Below are positions 3-23,212 of a stretch of 36,704 nt of DNA, piece after piece. This stretch comes from Anaerolineales bacterium (lineage in GTDB: Bacteria; Chloroflexota; Anaerolineae; Anaerolineales; Villigracilaceae): positions 1-36,704 of the forward strand of contig JAEURH010000029.1 of NCBI GenBank assembly GCA_016789365.1. The letters run 5' to 3'. Position 1 is the first letter of the stretch. Each line of letters opens with the position of its first letter. The notes under the pieces are model-generated. The model searched no databases. It saw only the letters and a program-made list of their open reading frames with translations, and was not told where the DNA came from. The translations under genes and the position numbers were made by a program.

Positions 3-596
3 TCTGCGGGTAATGCAATCTATTTCTTTTATTCTTTCTTTTGTCATCAATTACCGCAACGCTCCATCTTTCTATTCGGTGAACAAAGTATGTATTCACT
101 GAGCGAAATACAAACCGTTTGGCAAAACACATCCAACCCAATGATTCTTCGTCAATTTATAGGGAATGAAGCAATGGGTTGGAAAGTAGCATGGTCAGAT
201 CGTATGGTTTCATTTTATACAATTATTTGGGTGTTTGCAGTTATCTTTTCTTGGCTTCGGAATAAAGCAAAAGCAATTTCTATATGGATGGCTCTCTTAT
301 TATTAATGCCTATGATTTTAGATGGTGGCACTCACATGATTAGTGATTTTTCTGGTATTGGAAATGGCTTTCGTGACACAAACCTTTGGCTTGCTCAATT
401 AACCAATAACAGTTTCTCTCAAAATTTTTATAGTGGAGATGGAATTGGCTCTTTCAACTCATGGGCTAGATGGATTACAGGAATTTTAGCAGGGCTTGCA
501 ATAGTCTGGCTGGCTTTGCCGAACATCTTTGAAATACAAACACTAAATAAAAAATTAGATGAACTTAGTGTTGAAAATGTACTTAGGAAAAAGTAG
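3..596 (+). CDS. DUF2085 family membrane protein (5' partial)
   Basis: The reading frame is open from the window edge, so the true start lies upstream. The first in-window ATG at 90 is internal, because the residues before it (FCHQLPQRSIFLFG, about 44-85) are the conserved CHQxPxRS signature of DUF2085 membrane proteins. Downstream there are several hydrophobic segments (around 'IIWVFAVIFSWL', 'ISIWMALLLLMPMILDGG' and 'ITGILAGLAIVWLALP') and a short charged coiled tail. The function of the family is not established. The stop lies 3 nt before the copA start, so the two genes are almost certainly co-transcribed, which hints at a role in metal handling; that is inference from context. The family call is good and the function unknown. 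Confidence 0.8.
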   Translation, partial: SAGNAIYFFYSFFCHQLPQRSIFLFGEQSMYSLSEIQTVWQNTSNPMILRQFIGNEAMGWKVAWSDRMVSFYTIIWVFAVIFSWLRNKAKAISIWMALLLLMPMILDGGTHMISDFSGIGNGFRDTNLWLAQLTNNSFSQNFYSGDGIGSFNSWARWITGILAGLAIVWLALPNIFEIQTLNKKLDELSVENVLRKK

Positions 597-599
597 AAA

Positions 600-3047
600 A
601 TGTCTGATACAAAACAACTTACACTCCCCATCACTGGCATGACCTGTGCCAACTGTGTCGCGACTGTTGAACGCAATCTCAAAAAATTAGATGGCGTGAA
701 TTCGGCAGTTGTGAATCTTTCATCCGAAAGAGCCACAGTAGATTTTGATTCTGCAAAATTAGGAATCAATGACTTTATTGCACGAGTCAATCGCGCAGGC
801 TATGGTGTTGCAACGGGCGAAGCAGAGTTAATCATCAAAAATTTATCCGATGATAATGATGCCCGCACACTTGAAAACATTATCAAAAAACAAGAAGGCG
901 TTACAGAAGTTAATGTCAGTTTTACAACTGAAAAAGCGCAAGTCAAATATATTCCAACCATTATTACGCAAGCCGAATTAAGACGCACGATTGCAAACGC
1001 TGGCTTTGAAACTATCGAACTTGGTAATGAAAGTGAAGATGCCGAAGCCAAAGCACGCGAGCATGAAATCAATTACCAATATAACATGCTCATTCTTGGT
1101 CTTTTGTTTACAGTGCCGCTTTTTATTTATTCCATGTCAATGGATTTTGGTTTCATTCCAACTGATGCAGGTCATGCCTCGTTTACGGCTCAATTGTTTA
1201 TGTGGTTTTTAGCAACGCCAGTGCAATTCATTGTCGGTGGTCAATATTATGTCAGCGCGTTCAAAGCCTTGCGCAATGGCTCCGCAAATATGGATGTACT
1301 AATTGCAATGGGTTCATCCGCCGCATATTTTTATTCGGTCGTGATTACATTTGCAAACATCCATCAACATGTTTATTTTGAAACCGCCGCAGTCATCATC
1401 ACCTTGATTCGGCTTGGAAAATATTTGGAAGCACGAGCAAAAGGAAGAACGTCTGAAGCGATTAAAAAATTAATGGGACTCAGAGCCAAAACCGCACGCC
1501 TCATCCGCGACGGGCAAGAAGTTTCTGTTTCCATTGATGATGTTCGTGTCGGGGATACAGTTATCGTTAAACCTGGTGAAACCATTCCAGTAGATGGCGT
1601 TGTAGTTGAAGGACGAAGCACGGTTGATGAATCTATGCTGACGGGTGAATCATTGCCTGTTGAAAAGAAACAAGGTGACACAGTTATCGGCGCGACATTG
1701 AACAAACTTGGATTAATCAAATTTGAAGCGACTAAAGTTGGCAGAGAAACTGCATTAGCAAGAATCATCAAACTTGTAGAAGATGCGCAAGGAAGCAAAG
1801 CCCCAATTCAAAAACTAGCAGACCAAGTCTCTGCTGTTTTTGTGCCAATTGTGATTGTGATTTCATTAATTACATTTGTGGTTTGGTATTTTATTGTTCC
1901 ACTTACTGGTTATCAATTCTCAGATTCTCCATTCACCATTGCATTAATCAACATGGTTGCAGTTTTGGTGATTGCATGTCCATGTGCAATGGGACTCGCC
2001 ACACCAACTGCCATTATGGTTGGCACTGGTAAAGGCGCAGAGATTGGAATTTTATTTAGGAGTAGTGAAGCCCTCGAACGCGCTGGAAATGTAAATGTTG
2101 TTGTGTTAGATAAAACTGGCACAATTACAAAAGGTCAACCAGCAGTGACAGACATTGTTATAGAAAGTGGAAAGTGGAAAGAAGATGATTTGCTTCGTTT
2201 TGCCGCTTCTGTTGAAAAAGGAAGTGAACATCCATTAGGTGAAGCGATTTGGGCAGAAGCCACAACTCGCGGATTAACGCTTGCAGAACCTGTTGGGTTT
2301 ACGGCGATGCCAGGGTTTGGCGTGCAGGCTGAGGTCGAGTCCAGAAGTGTGATGGTGGGGAATAAGAAAATGTTTACAGACAAAGGGATCCAAATTGCGG
2401 ATTTTGAATCTGAAATATCTCGTTTGCAATCTGAAGCAAAGACTGCCATGTTGGTTGCGATTGATAATCAATTTGCTGGAATCATTGCAGTGGCGGATAC
2501 GATTAAAGAATCATCAAAATCTGCAATTGCGGATTTGCACACCATGAATTTGAAAGTTGCTATGATGACGGGCGATAATCAAAAAACTGCGGAAGCAATT
2601 GCAAAACAAGTTGGTATTGATGTTGTTTTAGCAGAAGTGTTGCCAGAAGGAAAATCTTCTGAAGTTAAGAAATTACAAACCCCAAATCCCGAATCTCGAA
2701 TCTCGAATATTGTTGCCATGGTCGGTGATGGTGTAAATGATGCACCTGCATTGGCGCAAGCAGATGTTGGTTTAGCAATTGGCACTGGAACCGATGTTGC
2801 TATGGCGGCGGCTCCGATAACTTTGATGAGTGGTGATTTGAAAGGTGTTGCCAAAACAATTCACTTGTCACGAAAAACATTATCAACGATTAAACAAAAT
2901 TTGTTCTGGGCGTTTTTCTACAATGTAGTATTAATCCCTGCGGCGGCACTTGGATATTTGAACCCAATGCTCGCGGCTGGAGCGATGGCTTTTAGCAGTG
3001 TGTTTGTGGTGACGAATAGTTTGAGACTCAAGAATGTAAAAATATGA
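600..3047 (+). CDS. copA: Copper-translocating P1B-type ATPase
   Basis: An 815-residue heavy-metal P-type ATPase, which exports Cu(I) across the membrane at the cost of ATP. An N-terminal HMA domain carries the metal-binding CANC (C16, C19). A second HMA-like fold (about residues 77-142) has lost its CxxC. The catalytic core is complete: TGES (348-351, actuator), the CPC membrane metal site (C460-P461-C462), the phosphorylated Asp in DKTGT (D504), the HP locus (H544-P545), MTGDN and GDGVNDAP. The CPC motif and the pairing with a CopZ-like gene (4963) point to Cu(I), with Ag(I) also possible. The start lies 3 nt after the DUF2085 stop with no clear ribosome binding site, which suggests translational coupling. 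The next gene starts 3 nt after this stop. Confidence 0.95.
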
Positions 3048-3050
3048 ATA

Positions 3051-3263
3051 ATGGACGAGATAACGTTTGAAGTTTTATTAACCTGCCCGCAGTGCGGTTT
3101 TGCTAAAAGAGAGATAATGCCTCCAGATACTTGAGTCGTTTTCTATTCGTGCACCAGTTGCGGTGCCTCAATTCGCCCAAAAGAAAAAGATTGTTGCGTG
3201 TTTTGTTCATATGGGAATAAACGCTGTGTTTCAAAGCAAAAAGAGGCGTCCAAAACTAATTGA
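3051..3263 (+). CDS. GDCCVxC-type small selenoprotein, read through in-frame TGA (Sec28)
   Basis: Reading ATG 3051 to TGA 3261 through an in-frame TGA at 3132-3134 gives a 70-residue Cys-rich protein. It carries CPQC (12-15), then MPPDT-U (U28), CTSC (34-37), KDCCVFC (46-52) and C59. This is the layout of the small GDCCVxC family, in which I recall the position after MPTDA being Cys or selenocysteine; here KDCCVFC stands for GDCCVxC. Homology-like sequence continues without frame change on both sides of the TGA, so it reads as Sec rather than a broken gene. A candidate bSECIS hairpin lies at 3151-3166. The gene starts 3 nt after the copA stop and is probably in its operon. Cys pairs and Sec suggest metal binding or thiol redox chemistry, but the function is not known to me. 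The alternative is a pseudogene with one nonsense mutation. Confidence 0.8.
3151..3166 (+). promoter_or_regulatory. Candidate bSECIS hairpin for Sec28
   Basis: GCACC (3151-3155) pairs perfectly with GGTGC (3162-3166) around the six-base loop AGTTGC. The loop begins 21 nt after the TGA at 3132-3134. Bacterial SECIS elements sit inside the coding sequence with the apical loop about 16-37 nt after UGA and a G near the start of the loop; both features are present. The short stem also spans codons for the conserved CTSC, so part of the conservation could be protein-driven. Confidence 0.6.
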
Positions 3264-3294: not shown

Positions 3295-3618
3295 ATGGCC
3301 AAGCAACGAAAGTTATTAAAGTTTATTCTTATTGCCTTTTGTGCTACTACCTTAGTGGCTTATTTGTCATTTTTCTCTGTTTCTACATCAATGATGCAAG
3401 CAACCGAAATGAATTCTCACACAGCGCATCATACAAATAACGGCCACTTTACTATGCTGTGTTGTGAAATGATAGGTACAAATTGCACTTCTCTTATAGG
3501 CTATGTTTCTGAATTTGTGGGTCTTTCGTTTGCCAAAGGGAAATATAGAATTGAAAATATAACTACAACAAACAAACTAATTTTCCTTGACATTCTTTCC
3601 CCGCCTCCTAAAATCTAA
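3295..3618 (+). CDS. Small exported or membrane-anchored His/Cys-rich protein
   Basis: A 107-residue protein with a basic start (KQRK) and a hydrophobic segment at about residues 9-28, which fits a signal peptide or single anchor. The outer part has a His-rich stretch (HTAHHTNNGH) followed by CCEMIGTNC, then a hydrophobic patch and a short basic tail. I do not recognise a family. The His and Cys residues together with the position between copper-export genes suggest extracytoplasmic metal binding; that is inference. It has its own promoter and no Shine-Dalgarno sequence. Confidence 0.6.
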   Translation: MAKQRKLLKFILIAFCATTLVAYLSFFSVSTSMMQATEMNSHTAHHTNNGHFTMLCCEMIGTNCTSLIGYVSEFVGLSFAKGKYRIENITTTNKLIFLDILSPPPKI

Positions 3619-3767: not shown

Positions 3768-4952
3768 ATGTCTAAAAATAATAATATACCTGCTATAAAT
3801 CCAGTTATGATTGTCTTTCTAGGAGTTCTGCTTCTAGCCTTCTCAATCTTCCTAATTACATTTCAGCCAAATCTAGAATCGCTAAATCAAAATGTAGGCT
3901 CCGATATTATGAGTCAATTAATAATAGCCTTCATCACAGGCATTACTACAGGCGGTCTAAGTTGTTTGGCAGTGCAAGGTGGCTTATTGGCTAGTTCAAT
4001 TGCACATCAGGTAGAACAAGATTACAGTGAAAAGAAAAAATTAAAAACTCGATTCAATGCAAGGCTTCCAATCTTTCTGTTTCTGGTTTCAAAATTAATC
4101 GCATACACGTTGCTGGGCGCGTTACTTGGCTGGCTTGGCTCGTATTTCACATTTAACCCCACCACTCGCGCTTTGTTAATGATTGCAATTGCGATTTTTA
4201 TGATTGGCAACGCTTTGCGGATGTTTAATATACATCCCATCTTTCGTTATTTTTCCATTGAACCGCCCAAAGTCATCACCCGCTATATTCGCAAAACTGC
4301 CAAAGGTACAGATACCGCCACACCAATTTTTCTTGGTGTATTAACCGTTTTCATTCCGTGTGGCGTAACTCAAGCCATGATGGCAACCGCACTTGGCTCA
4401 GGGAATGCCTTTACAGGTGCGGCACTCATGTTTGCATTTACACTTGGTACAAGCCCTGTGTTTTTCATCATTGCCTACTTAACAACAGAACTTGGTGCAA
4501 GCCTTGAAAAATTCTTTATGCGCTTTGTTGCAGTTGTAATTTTGATTTTAGGGTTCGTGACCTTAGACGGCGGTCTCAACTTAATGGGCTCTCCTTATTC
4601 GCTTCAAAACCTGACTCGAAACTCGTCATTCCCATCAGCCGAATCATCACCTGAAATAAGTTCTGCTCAACAAATCACATCTGCCGAAGATGAAATTACC
4701 TTATATGTTCAGAATGAAGGATATTTTCCTGAAATCCTTAAAGCACCAGCAGGTAAAGACCTAACATTAAATCTAGTTACCGATGGCGTTTATTCTTGTG
4801 CTCTTGCCTTTCTCATCCCTGATATAGATTTTTATCAAATGCTTCCATCTGTTGGAACTGTACAAGTAAATATTCCTGCCCAAACAGCCGGAACAGAAAT
4901 GTACTTTACCTGTTCAATGGGCATGTACACTGGTCAAATCATTTTTGAATAA
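3768..4952 (+). CDS. Sulfite exporter TauE/SafE-like membrane protein with C-terminal cupredoxin domain
   Basis: A 394-residue two-part protein. Residues about 1-275 form a polytopic membrane domain of the UreH/DsbD-like TauE/SafE type, with a Gly-rich first half-repeat (ITGITTGGLSCLAVQGG) and the mirrored 'FIPCGVTQAMM' in the second half; each half carries a conserved Cys. After a Ser/Pro-rich linker, residues about 310-394 look like a cupredoxin fold, with an early Cys (YSCALAF) and a terminal CSMGMYTGQI loop typical of cupredoxin domains in metal-transport proteins. The HMA gene 10 nt downstream and copA upstream support copper transfer, possibly from a chaperone through the membrane domain to an outer cupredoxin. 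The fold call is firm; the substrate is inferred. The start was chosen at ATG 3768, preceded by AGAGGCACG. Confidence 0.85.
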   Translation: MSKNNNIPAINPVMIVFLGVLLLAFSIFLITFQPNLESLNQNVGSDIMSQLIIAFITGITTGGLSCLAVQGGLLASSIAHQVEQDYSEKKKLKTRFNARLPIFLFLVSKLIAYTLLGALLGWLGSYFTFNPTTRALLMIAIAIFMIGNALRMFNIHPIFRYFSIEPPKVITRYIRKTAKGTDTATPIFLGVLTVFIPCGVTQAMMATALGSGNAFTGAALMFAFTLGTSPVFFIIAYLTTELGASLEKFFMRFVAVVILILGFVTLDGGLNLMGSPYSLQNLTRNSSFPSAESSPEISSAQQITSAEDEITLYVQNEGYFPEILKAPAGKDLTLNLVTDGVYSCALAFLIPDIDFYQMLPSVGTVQVNIPAQTAGTEMYFTCSMGMYTGQIIFE

Positions 4953-4962
4953 CGGAGAAAAT

Positions 4963-5175
4963 ATGATTAAAAAAATATTCAAAGTATCAGATATGACTTG
5001 TTCAAATTGCGCCATGAAACTCGAAAGTTTAGAAGACGTGTTAGATGGTGTAAAAGAAATCAATGCTAGTTATCACAAACTTGAAATGTCAATTGAATAT
5101 GACGAATCTAAATTAACAGAAGAAGATATTATGAAAGCAGTAAAGAAAAAAGGGTATACAGCATCACCAGCATAA
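4963..5175 (+). CDS. copZ: Heavy-metal-associated (CopZ-like) metallochaperone
   Basis: A 70-residue stand-alone HMA domain with the metal-binding motif DMTCSNC near the N-terminus (Cys pair at about 12 and 15) and the usual alternating pattern ending in KKGYTASPA. HMA proteins of this size carry Cu(I) to CopA-type ATPases in the cytosol. The start was set at ATG 4963 because GGAG (4954-4957) lies at the right distance; an upstream in-frame ATG at 4945 overlaps the TauE gene end and has no better site. It is the last gene before a strong terminator, so it is probably co-transcribed with the TauE/cupredoxin gene. The exact metal is not shown by the sequence. Confidence 0.88.
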   Translation: MIKKIFKVSDMTCSNCAMKLESLEDVLDGVKEINASYHKLEMSIEYDESKLTEEDIMKAVKKKGYTASPA

Positions 5176-7489: not shown

Positions 7490-8488
7490 ATGAAATTTCT
7501 TTTTATCGGCGGTACAGGATTAATCAGTTCTGCCTGTTCAGAATTAGCAGTTCAACGCGGACATGAATTATTTTTGCTAAATCGTTCTGCTTCAAAAAAA
7601 TATCCTGCTCCAAACGGTGCAACGGTTTTACAAGCAGATATTTATAATAATCCATCTCAAGTAGCCGATTTAATTGCAAATCATCACTTTGATGCGGTTG
7701 TGGATTTTATTGCTTTCTCACCACAAGATATTGAACGAGATATAAATTTATTTCGGAATAAAACAAATCAATTTATATTTATATCATCTGCAAGTGCGTA
7801 TCAAAAACCAGTTCAAAATTATTTAATAACTGAAGAAACGCCATTAGAAAATCCATTTTGGGAATATTCACGCAATAAAATTGCTTGTGAAGAAAGATTA
7901 ATGCAAGCATACCGCGATGAAAAATTCCCTGTCACCATTATTCGTCCATCACATACTTACGGACCTTCACAAATCCCATTCATTGTGGGTAGTTGGCAAC
8001 ACCCGTGGACTTTAATAGATAGAATGAAACAAGGCAAACCTGTCATCATTCCAGGTGATGGAACTTCACTTTGGGTATTAACTTGGAATGAAGATTTTGC
8101 TGTCGGTTTGATTGGTTTATTAGGAAATCAAAAAGCAATTGGTGAAGCATTTCAAATCACATCAGACGAAGTGTTGACGTGGAATCAAATTTACAACGAA
8201 GCGTATCAGGCTTTGGGCGTGGAGCGAAGCGTGGTTTACATCCCCAGCGATTTTATTGCTAAGTTTGATGAACATGCTATCGGAAGTTTGATTGGCGATA
8301 AATCCAATAGCGTAGTGTTTGATAATAGCAAAATTAAAAAGTTTGTGCCTGAATACAATTGCAAAGTGAAATGGAGCGAAGGCGTGCGCCGTTCATTGGC
8401 TTGGTTTGAGGTGCATCCTGAATTTCAAACCATTGACCATGATGCTATTAAAATGATGGAGAAGATTTTAGAAGCATACAACAAGTAG
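7490..8488 (+). CDS. NAD-dependent epimerase/dehydratase (extended SDR)
   Basis: A 332-residue protein with the Rossmann motif FIGGTGLIS at the N-terminus, a Ser-rich strand end (ISSASAY) and the catalytic pair YSRNK, as in extended short-chain dehydrogenases acting on nucleotide sugars and related substrates. The C-terminal half has the 'RPSHTYGP' block usual in the family. The substrate cannot be told from the sequence; it could be a sugar-nucleotide epimerase or a reductase. The start is 12 nt after rarD, inside the tail of a palindromic repeat (GTGAGGGAAAT before ATG), so the repeat may supply the ribosome binding site. Confidence 0.85.
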   Translation: MKFLFIGGTGLISSACSELAVQRGHELFLLNRSASKKYPAPNGATVLQADIYNNPSQVADLIANHHFDAVVDFIAFSPQDIERDINLFRNKTNQFIFISSASAYQKPVQNYLITEETPLENPFWEYSRNKIACEERLMQAYRDEKFPVTIIRPSHTYGPSQIPFIVGSWQHPWTLIDRMKQGKPVIIPGDGTSLWVLTWNEDFAVGLIGLLGNQKAIGEAFQITSDEVLTWNQIYNEAYQALGVERSVVYIPSDFIAKFDEHAIGSLIGDKSNSVVFDNSKIKKFVPEYNCKVKWSEGVRRSLAWFEVHPEFQTIDHDAIKMMEKILEAYNK

Positions 8489-22153: not shown

Positions 22154-23212
22154 TTACTTTATCATAATACCTTTTCCTGCAACCGCTTCACCAATCACCC
22201 ATACCTGTTGATTTGATTCCTCAGCCTTTTTCTTAAAGTCAGCCAATTGCTCTTTCGGCACCCCGAGTAATAAACCTCCACTTGTTTGCGGGTCAAATAA
22301 CAGCATTTGAGATGCTTCATCTAATCCTTTATTAAATGTTACAAAACTTTCAAAATGTTTTTTATTATCAAACGCGCCACCAGGGAAGATTCCTTTTTCA
22401 GCATAACTTTTTGCGCCACTTAAGAAAGGCAATTTATCAAATTCAATTTGCAACTGCACATTGGATGATTCAGCCATTTCCACGCCGTGACCAATTAATC
22501 CAAACCCAGTAATATCCGTTCCACCTTTTAGATTAAATTCCACAGCCAACTCGCCTGCTTTTTTATTTAACCTAGACATCCACTCAATTGCTTCTTGAAT
22601 ATGTGCCTCTTCTACTTTTTCTTGCTTCAATGCAGTTGTAGTCACTCCCATGCCAAGTGGTTTTGTTAGAACTAAAACATCACCAACTTTGAGTCCGCTT
22701 TTGCTGATAATCTTTTGCGGATGCACAAATCCAATCACAACCAAGCCATATTTCGGCTCTTTGTCTTTGACAGTATGTCCGCCAGCAATTACCACGCCCG
22801 CTTCTTTGGCTTTTTCAGCACCGCCTCGTAGAATTTCACTCAACATTTCCGTTGGTACATTATCTGGTAATGCCGCAATGTTCAATGCTAAAAATGGTTT
22901 ACCGCCCATCGCCCACACATCCGACATTGAATTTGCCGCCGCAATCGCGCCATATTCATAAGGTGTATCTACAACGGGCGTGAAAAAATCTGTGGTGATG
23001 ACAATCGCTTGCTCGTCACTTAAACGCCAAACAGCCGCATCATCTGGGGATTCCAAACCAACTAACAAGTCAGGGAATGAAGCGGCATCAAAAATATTTT
23101 TGACGGGACTCAAAACTTGAGTCAGTGCATCAGCACTTAATTTAGACGCTCAACCCGCACACGTTGACAATGTCGTCAGGCGGATTTCACGTCCATTCTG
23201 AGGAATGGGCAT
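22154..23212 (-). CDS. selD: Selenide, water dikinase with in-frame Sec codon (Sec21)
   Basis: SelD makes selenophosphate from selenide and ATP, the selenium donor for selenocysteine and selenouridine. Read from ATG 23212 through an in-frame TGA (23150-23152), the protein is 352 residues, the usual length. The N-terminus reads LTTLSTCAG-U-ASKLSADALTQVL, matching the SelD catalytic loop in which Sec or Cys takes part in catalysis (U21, with C18 nearby and K24). The rest is typical: 'AVWRLSDEQAIVITTDFFTPVVD', 'ANSMSDVWAMGGKP', 'GGHTVKD', 'DPQTSGGLL'. A plain ORF search starts at a TTG at 23113 and loses the active site. A bSECIS-like hairpin follows the TGA. Palindromic repeats flank the gene on both sides. 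No strong ribosome binding site is seen. Confidence 0.93.
23107..23123 (-). promoter_or_regulatory. Candidate bSECIS hairpin for SelD Sec21
   Basis: On the minus strand GACTCAA (23123-23117) pairs perfectly with TTGAGTC (23113-23107) around the loop GTT. The loop begins 34 nt downstream of the TGA (33 nt between), inside the 16-37 nt window for bacterial SECIS elements, and its first base is G. This fits SelB recognition rules. Confidence 0.65.

Follow-up and report, generated by a model that had tools for sequence, protein, structure and literature searches.

The window (the whole stretch of DNA that was analysed) is an entire contig of 36.7 kb, from an assembly with a completeness of 86.49% and a contamination of 4.29%. 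It holds a copper cluster in which copA is followed by a small gene whose reading frame is crossed by a TGA codon, as well as a gene for selenophosphate synthetase on the opposite strand (Table 1). The copA frame ends in TGA at 3045-3047, and the small gene starts 3 nt behind it, as the preliminary description of this DNA had stated. From the ATG at 3051, a frame of 70 codons is interrupted by a sole internal stop, the TGA at residue 28, and its translation contains CPQC, U28, CTSC, and KDCCVFC, which bears out the earlier account of a Cys-rich frame broken by this codon only. A gene caller treating TGA as a stop would shorten the gene to 27 residues. The 107-residue protein encoded next holds the stretches HTAHHTNNGH and MLCCE, and no match to it was found in Pfam or NCBIfam.

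Table 1. Coordinates of the features in the window; L022 is a related selenocysteine (Sec) locus from Anaerolineales
Feature	Position	Strand	Remarks
DUF2085 membrane protein	90..596	+	upstream of copA
CopA, copper-type P1B ATPase, two HMA domains	600..3047	+	TIGR01511, 599.5 bits (cut-off 397)
GDCCVxC (NF041374 / GOS_B) putative selenoprotein gene	3051..3263	+	70 aa; residue 28 predicted Sec; terminal stop TGA 3261-3263
In-frame TGA, proposed Sec codon	3132..3134	+	family alignment (n = 47): TGA 10, Cys 37
Candidate bacterial SECIS-type hairpin	3151..3166	+	GCACC/GGUGC stem of 5 bp; AGUUGC loop whose second base is G
107-aa protein, hydrophobic N-terminus, His/Cys-rich stretch	3295..3618	+	relative in the L022 copA cluster
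DsbD_2 transmembrane domain + cupredoxin-like domain	3768..4952	+	relative in L022
Single HMA-domain (CopZ-like) protein	4963..5175	+	L022 relative directly upstream of the Sec gene
selD, selenophosphate synthetase	22154..23212	-	369 bits (cut-off 125)

Family membership and the codon at residue 28

When Cys was substituted for U, the protein scored 85.9 bits against NF041374, the "GDCCVxC domain-containing (seleno)protein" model (cut-off 40), and a Pfam scan of the same protein gave no match above the cut-off. A 2026 review enters NF041374 under the name "Hypothetical protein GOS_B," with the status of predicted selenoprotein and no motif (PMC13188914). The first report of GOS_B, from 2008, counted 11 Sec sequences and 125 Cys sequences and, in its available text, gave no functional evidence (PMC2398784). 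What the window protein has in common with GOS_B / NF041374 is the family, by model score, and the standing of a predicted selenoprotein with Cys relatives; it differs in having KDCCVFC for GDCCVFC and CVSKQ for CPxKQ and in its copA neighbourhood. The DCCVxC core is retained, and K takes the position of the leading G, which is also the case in L030, L036, and L037. Because the family has already been catalogued as a predicted selenoprotein, the window gene is a new instance and not a new kind.

We aligned 47 distinct sequences (the window counted), which came from loci of a genome scan (21 with relatives), a draw of 400 Chloroflexota genomes, and six plasmid relatives. The draw gave matches in 35 genomes, 32 of them above the family cut-off. 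Two duplicates were dropped (L071, equal to L024, and L072, equal to L023), and loci outside the member pattern were not aligned (L038, L039, and L092 to L100). Among these latter loci, L092 to L095 have Cys at residue 28, as does L038, whose frame departs further on; L039 has a stop before residue 28, and L100, a fragment in G385, has TGA at the position of residue 28 and runs off its contig. Nine Cys/Sec positions were invariant in the alignment (12, 15, 28, 34, 37, 48, 49, 52, and 59), and all nine are present in the window protein. Residue 28 was encoded by TGA in 10 sequences and was Cys in the remaining 37, in agreement with the earlier statement that the TGA stands at a family Cys position. 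An unrelated residue at this position, which had been named as a finding that would count against Sec, was absent from the 47 and occurred once outside them, as Ile in a tandem paralogue (G142) that was kept out of the alignment. The tandem GDCCVxC genes of G142 (L074, about 7542-7960) lie behind a PIN-domain gene; copy 1 has TGA at residue 28, and copy 2, the one with Ile, has HC replacing CC.

Nine of the 10 TGA genes, again with the window counted, are of Anaerolineae type and come from eight assemblies (L019 and L020 from one); the class name follows from the named relatives L022 (Anaerolineales) and L024 (Anaerolinea sp.). The tenth, L074, belongs to another family of Chloroflexota. Presence of the gene was patchy, with 2 of the 11 genomes of the window's genus within the 400-genome draw carrying it. 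In a tree of the 47 rows, which had too few columns, the Sec/Cys distribution needed three changes, two of them forced by the starred branches, and the L074 branch was very long. A Cys-Cys-like C-terminal tail, scored by a crude pattern, was seen in 20 of the 37 Cys forms versus none of the 10 TGA forms, a split that may only reflect lineage. A phage search for relatives of the protein gave no match, and of nine stretches in viral contigs that fitted the pattern, none codes for a relative.

The substitutions on the two sides of the TGA were then compared over all pairs of nine sequences from eight assemblies. The 20 codons before the TGA had a pS of 0.67 and a pN of 0.11, and the 35 codons behind it had a pS of 0.77 and a pN of 0.13; no ratio is quoted, since pS is near saturation. 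Judged by these values, the gene is not decaying and selection acts on either side of the TGA. Loss of the frame in close relatives, the pseudogene outcome that had been raised beforehand, did not appear; the frame is kept, with purifying selection. These values also bear on the alternative that the TGA is a true stop, leaving a dead or truncated frame of 27 residues after copA. TGA is indeed an ordinary stop in the window's genome, where copA ends in it, and the local folding described below is not exceptional, but the low pN against the high pS behind the TGA, the intactness of all nine family Cys/Sec positions, and the presence of the same TGA in nine further family members argue in the other direction, and we consider a true stop very unlikely.

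The hairpin behind the TGA and the Sec machinery

The candidate hairpin consists of GCACC (3151-3155), AGUUGC (3156-3161), and GGUGC (3162-3166), and lies downstream of the TGA at a distance of 16 nt for the stem and 21 nt for the apical loop, and so the hairpin with a G-containing loop that had been reported at this distance was recovered. Published rules for bSECIS elements give a loop of 3 to 9 nt with a G within its first two bases, a stem of 4 to 16 bp, a spacing of 16 to 37 nt, and a free energy of at most -7.5 kcal/mol (PMC13188914). The window hairpin fits this geometry (loop of 6 nt, G at 2, stem of 5 bp, spacing of 21 nt), and its energy is borderline, at -7.1 kcal/mol for the stem alone and -8.7 kcal/mol for the region, versus the published limit of -7.5. 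At the same fixed place, all five pairs could form in each of the nine TGA sequences of Anaerolineae type, with AGUUGC, AGUUGU, or GGCUGC as the loop, and all five formed in none of the 37 Cys genes, of which 6 had four pairs, 13 had three, and 18 had fewer. This conservation of the stem is strong but is not independent ninefold evidence, because the TGA set itself served to select the place and its sequences are related. At pair 22-33 the window has A-U, whereas the six sequences compared with it in a separate alignment have G-C, which amounts to one compensatory event. The TGA gene L074 had one of the five pairs at the stem place; a long stem was predicted there instead (z of -0.71).

Taken alone, the local folding of the window was unremarkable (z of 0.05, 0.03, and -1.04), as shuffled sequences often folded equally well, and an equally stable hairpin occurred in 21 of 500 synonymous recodings of the window; the recoding control used the codon usage of genes of the window for all sequences and is unsuited to GC-rich genomes. 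Several Cys genes (L026, L084, L085, L091, and L103) had strong hairpins at other places within the permitted spacing. Two kinds of proof of a SECIS were rejected, namely, single-sequence folding, given z-scores near zero, and the occurrence of any hairpin at 16 to 37 nt, given that some Cys genes reach equal energies. A scan of the whole window with Rfam at gathering thresholds gave no match. The evidence for the hairpin as a putative SECIS element is its conserved place together with its pairing across relatives.

Genes for Sec synthesis and insertion were found in the window's genome, with SelA at 536.6 bits, SelB at 347.9 bits, and tRNA-Sec at 67 bits, all above their cut-offs, and the tRNA-Sec was also called by ARAGORN (tca). 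The contamination of 4.29% means that contigs other than the window's could be foreign, but selD sits on the window's own contig. Absence of the Sec machinery, the last of the counter-cases raised beforehand, did not appear, as SelA, SelB, tRNA-Sec, and SelD are all present. The selD gene has an in-frame TGA of its own at 23152-23150 in a CAGU motif, with a hairpin, AGUGC-UGAU-GCACU, at 23137-23124 (z of -2.33), making it a second selenoprotein gene within the same window. SelA was also searched for in 32 of the 35 Chloroflexota genomes with matches (G248, G143, and G342, below the family cut-off, were left out). It was present in 29, including all seven with the TGA form, and the three genomes that lacked it (G166, G335, and G341) all carry Cys forms; with SelA so common (29 of 32), its association with the TGA form is weak support.

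A reassignment of TGA to Cys or Trp throughout the genome, with no dedicated Sec insertion, would account for the in-frame TGA codons and nothing beyond them. It is contradicted by copA and the Sec gene, both of which end in TGA, and by the presence of SelA, SelB, tRNA-Sec, and a Sec-type SelD, and we regard it as extremely improbable. From the gene, the codon, the hairpin, and the machinery together, we infer that Sec is inserted at the TGA at residue 28. The locus is thus very probably a genuine selenoprotein gene and a member of a known predicted family, as judged from sequence comparison.

Metal genes near the Sec and Cys forms

The position of the gene behind copA and in front of other metal genes had been taken to link selenium to metal export. 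This link was found at two loci, the window's and L022, where the order is CopA, a relative of the 107-residue protein, an SCO-like match, DsbD_2-cupredoxin, HMA, and the Sec gene. No copper cluster was found by tblastn with a library of chosen proteins (taken from the window and from annotated loci) at the other seven of the nine Anaerolineae-type Sec loci, and three of these seven contigs end within 2 kb of the Sec locus on one side (L019, L021, and L070). Ten selected neighbours from seven other Sec loci (without L019 and L022) were scanned with Pfam, and two L022 neighbours were compared with NCBIfam; an ArsM-like methyltransferase lies near L020. With a copper cluster in just two of nine Anaerolineae-type Sec loci, the link to copA does not hold for the Sec form in general, and this part of the earlier claim does not extend beyond the two loci.

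The Cys relatives from the same class were accompanied by a heavy-metal ATPase directly downstream in three of three cases (G152, G283, and G325). The eight genomes searched, with roughly 30 Mb in all, hold 32 heavy-metal ATPases that scored above the cut-off, so that one would be expected within 3 kb in about 1% of cases; it was observed in four of the eight genomes, three of which are from one family. We also read 18 plasmid regions, which reduce to 15 distinct settings (one region is without annotation and three have the same transposon). These were chosen among the matches listed (40 of 343 records, by even steps and our own choice) and are a sample, not a rate. Mercury transport genes were directly upstream or one gene off in six of the 15 sampled settings (L102, L103, L106, L108, L109, and L113), and ars genes were directly upstream in two (L104 and L107). 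The remaining seven had no adjacent mer or ars genes (L105, L110, L111, L112, L114, L116, and L118), and in four of them, L110, L111, L114, and L116, genes for copper or HMA proteins lie no more than 5 kb away.

Three Pseudomonas plasmids (L103, L117, and L119) carry a small Tn3-type module in which merP is followed by a Cys GDCCVxC gene; merR and merT are also annotated in L103 and L119, and merA is annotated in none of the stretches read. In these MerR-MerT-MerP modules, the family member directly behind merP is a Cys form, without Sec. No MerT was found in the window's genome by a search whose control likewise gave no signal, so that this result does not establish its absence. At L108 (4795-4995), the gap that separates an HMA gene from the GDCCVxC gene is filled by a predicted 'vanR' label in PLSDB, which looks like a mislabel.

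Sec has been predicted in other proteins of copper and mercury systems. A table in the 2026 review includes MerT-like, P-type ATPase UxxC, and CopZ-like proteins, as well as NF041115 UxxU metal-binding and SO_0444 Cu/Zn efflux proteins (PMC13188914). Their likeness to the window protein is a predicted Sec in copper or mercury handling. They belong to other families, which the model scans did not list for the window protein, and in most of them Sec is part of a listed motif such as CxxU, UxxC, UxxU, or CU, whereas the Sec of the window protein would stand alone between two knuckles.

Predicted structure and proposed function

An AlphaFold2 prediction made with 41 sequences had a mean pLDDT of 86.3 and a pTM of 0.64. 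Foldseek gave no significant match to the predicted structure (best E of 0.29), with many of the weak matches being what we take to be zinc-ribbon proteins. A profile search matched 1qyp, an RNA polymerase II chain, with an E of 0.0016, a zinc finger protein with 0.018, and rubredoxins from 0.099 up. The protein has two CxxC pairs, C12/C15 and C34/C37, and these four cysteines resemble the pair of CxxC knuckles in a zinc ribbon; the cysteines that would lie near residue 28 were assigned from the sequence. No signal peptide or membrane segment was seen by eye, and the protein is probably cytosolic.

No function for the GDCCVxC / GOS_B protein was found in the open-licence literature searched, nor is one given in the available text of the 2008 report (PMC2398784) or the 2026 review (PMC13188914), consistent with the preliminary description, which had called the function undescribed. 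From the copper, mercury, and arsenic neighbourhoods, it seems about evenly balanced whether the protein handles metal of some kind. In the explanation that we favour, ribosomes would translate the frame behind copA, and the hairpin would retain SelB and its Sec-tRNA so that Sec is inserted at the UGA and termination is avoided. For the metal role, which is speculative, we propose a second site of thiolates and selenolate, made up of U28, C48, C49, C52, and C59, that would take up a soft metal, Cu(I) here and Hg(II) or As(III) in relatives, and the metal would be passed to the neighbouring exporter or kept bound. Sec may raise the affinity of this site or ease redox release. A further-reaching reading, which we offer tentatively and at well below even likelihood, is that the family member is a general soft-metal protein of copper, mercury, and arsenic operons whose Sec form binds the metal directly through selenium, next to a structural zinc ribbon. 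The protein would then act together with CopA as a selenolate metallochaperone and be a recognisable, though unnamed, additional component of merR-merT-merP modules.

The protein could instead be a selenoprotein that acts as a redox enzyme, in which Sec28 would attack a disulfide or peroxide with the CCVxC cysteines as resolving residues; it might, for example, keep the metal-site thiols of CopA or HMA proteins reduced. This is a rival to the proposed function only and shares the selenoprotein identity. Oxidoreductases make up most of the known selenoproteins to which a function has been assigned, and the review, as far as its available text goes, expects likewise for most of the others (PMC13188914); the second gene downstream encodes a DsbD-type protein, and thioredoxin, TlpA, or SCO genes lie near some relatives within the 5 kb read. 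However, the window protein has no CxxU or UxxC motif, and the review gives the family none (PMC13188914). In addition, the knuckles resemble a zinc ribbon more than a thioredoxin fold, with Foldseek giving no significant match either way, and the recurrent MerT, MerP, and ars neighbours suit metal handling better. We view a redox enzyme as a possibility worth keeping in mind, at clearly less than even likelihood.

For metal handling, the neighbourhoods with copper ATPases, mercury transport, and arsenic genes give this family a testable role. They also suggest natural Sec/Cys pairs in which the exchange of Cys and Sec in soft-metal proteins may be studied.
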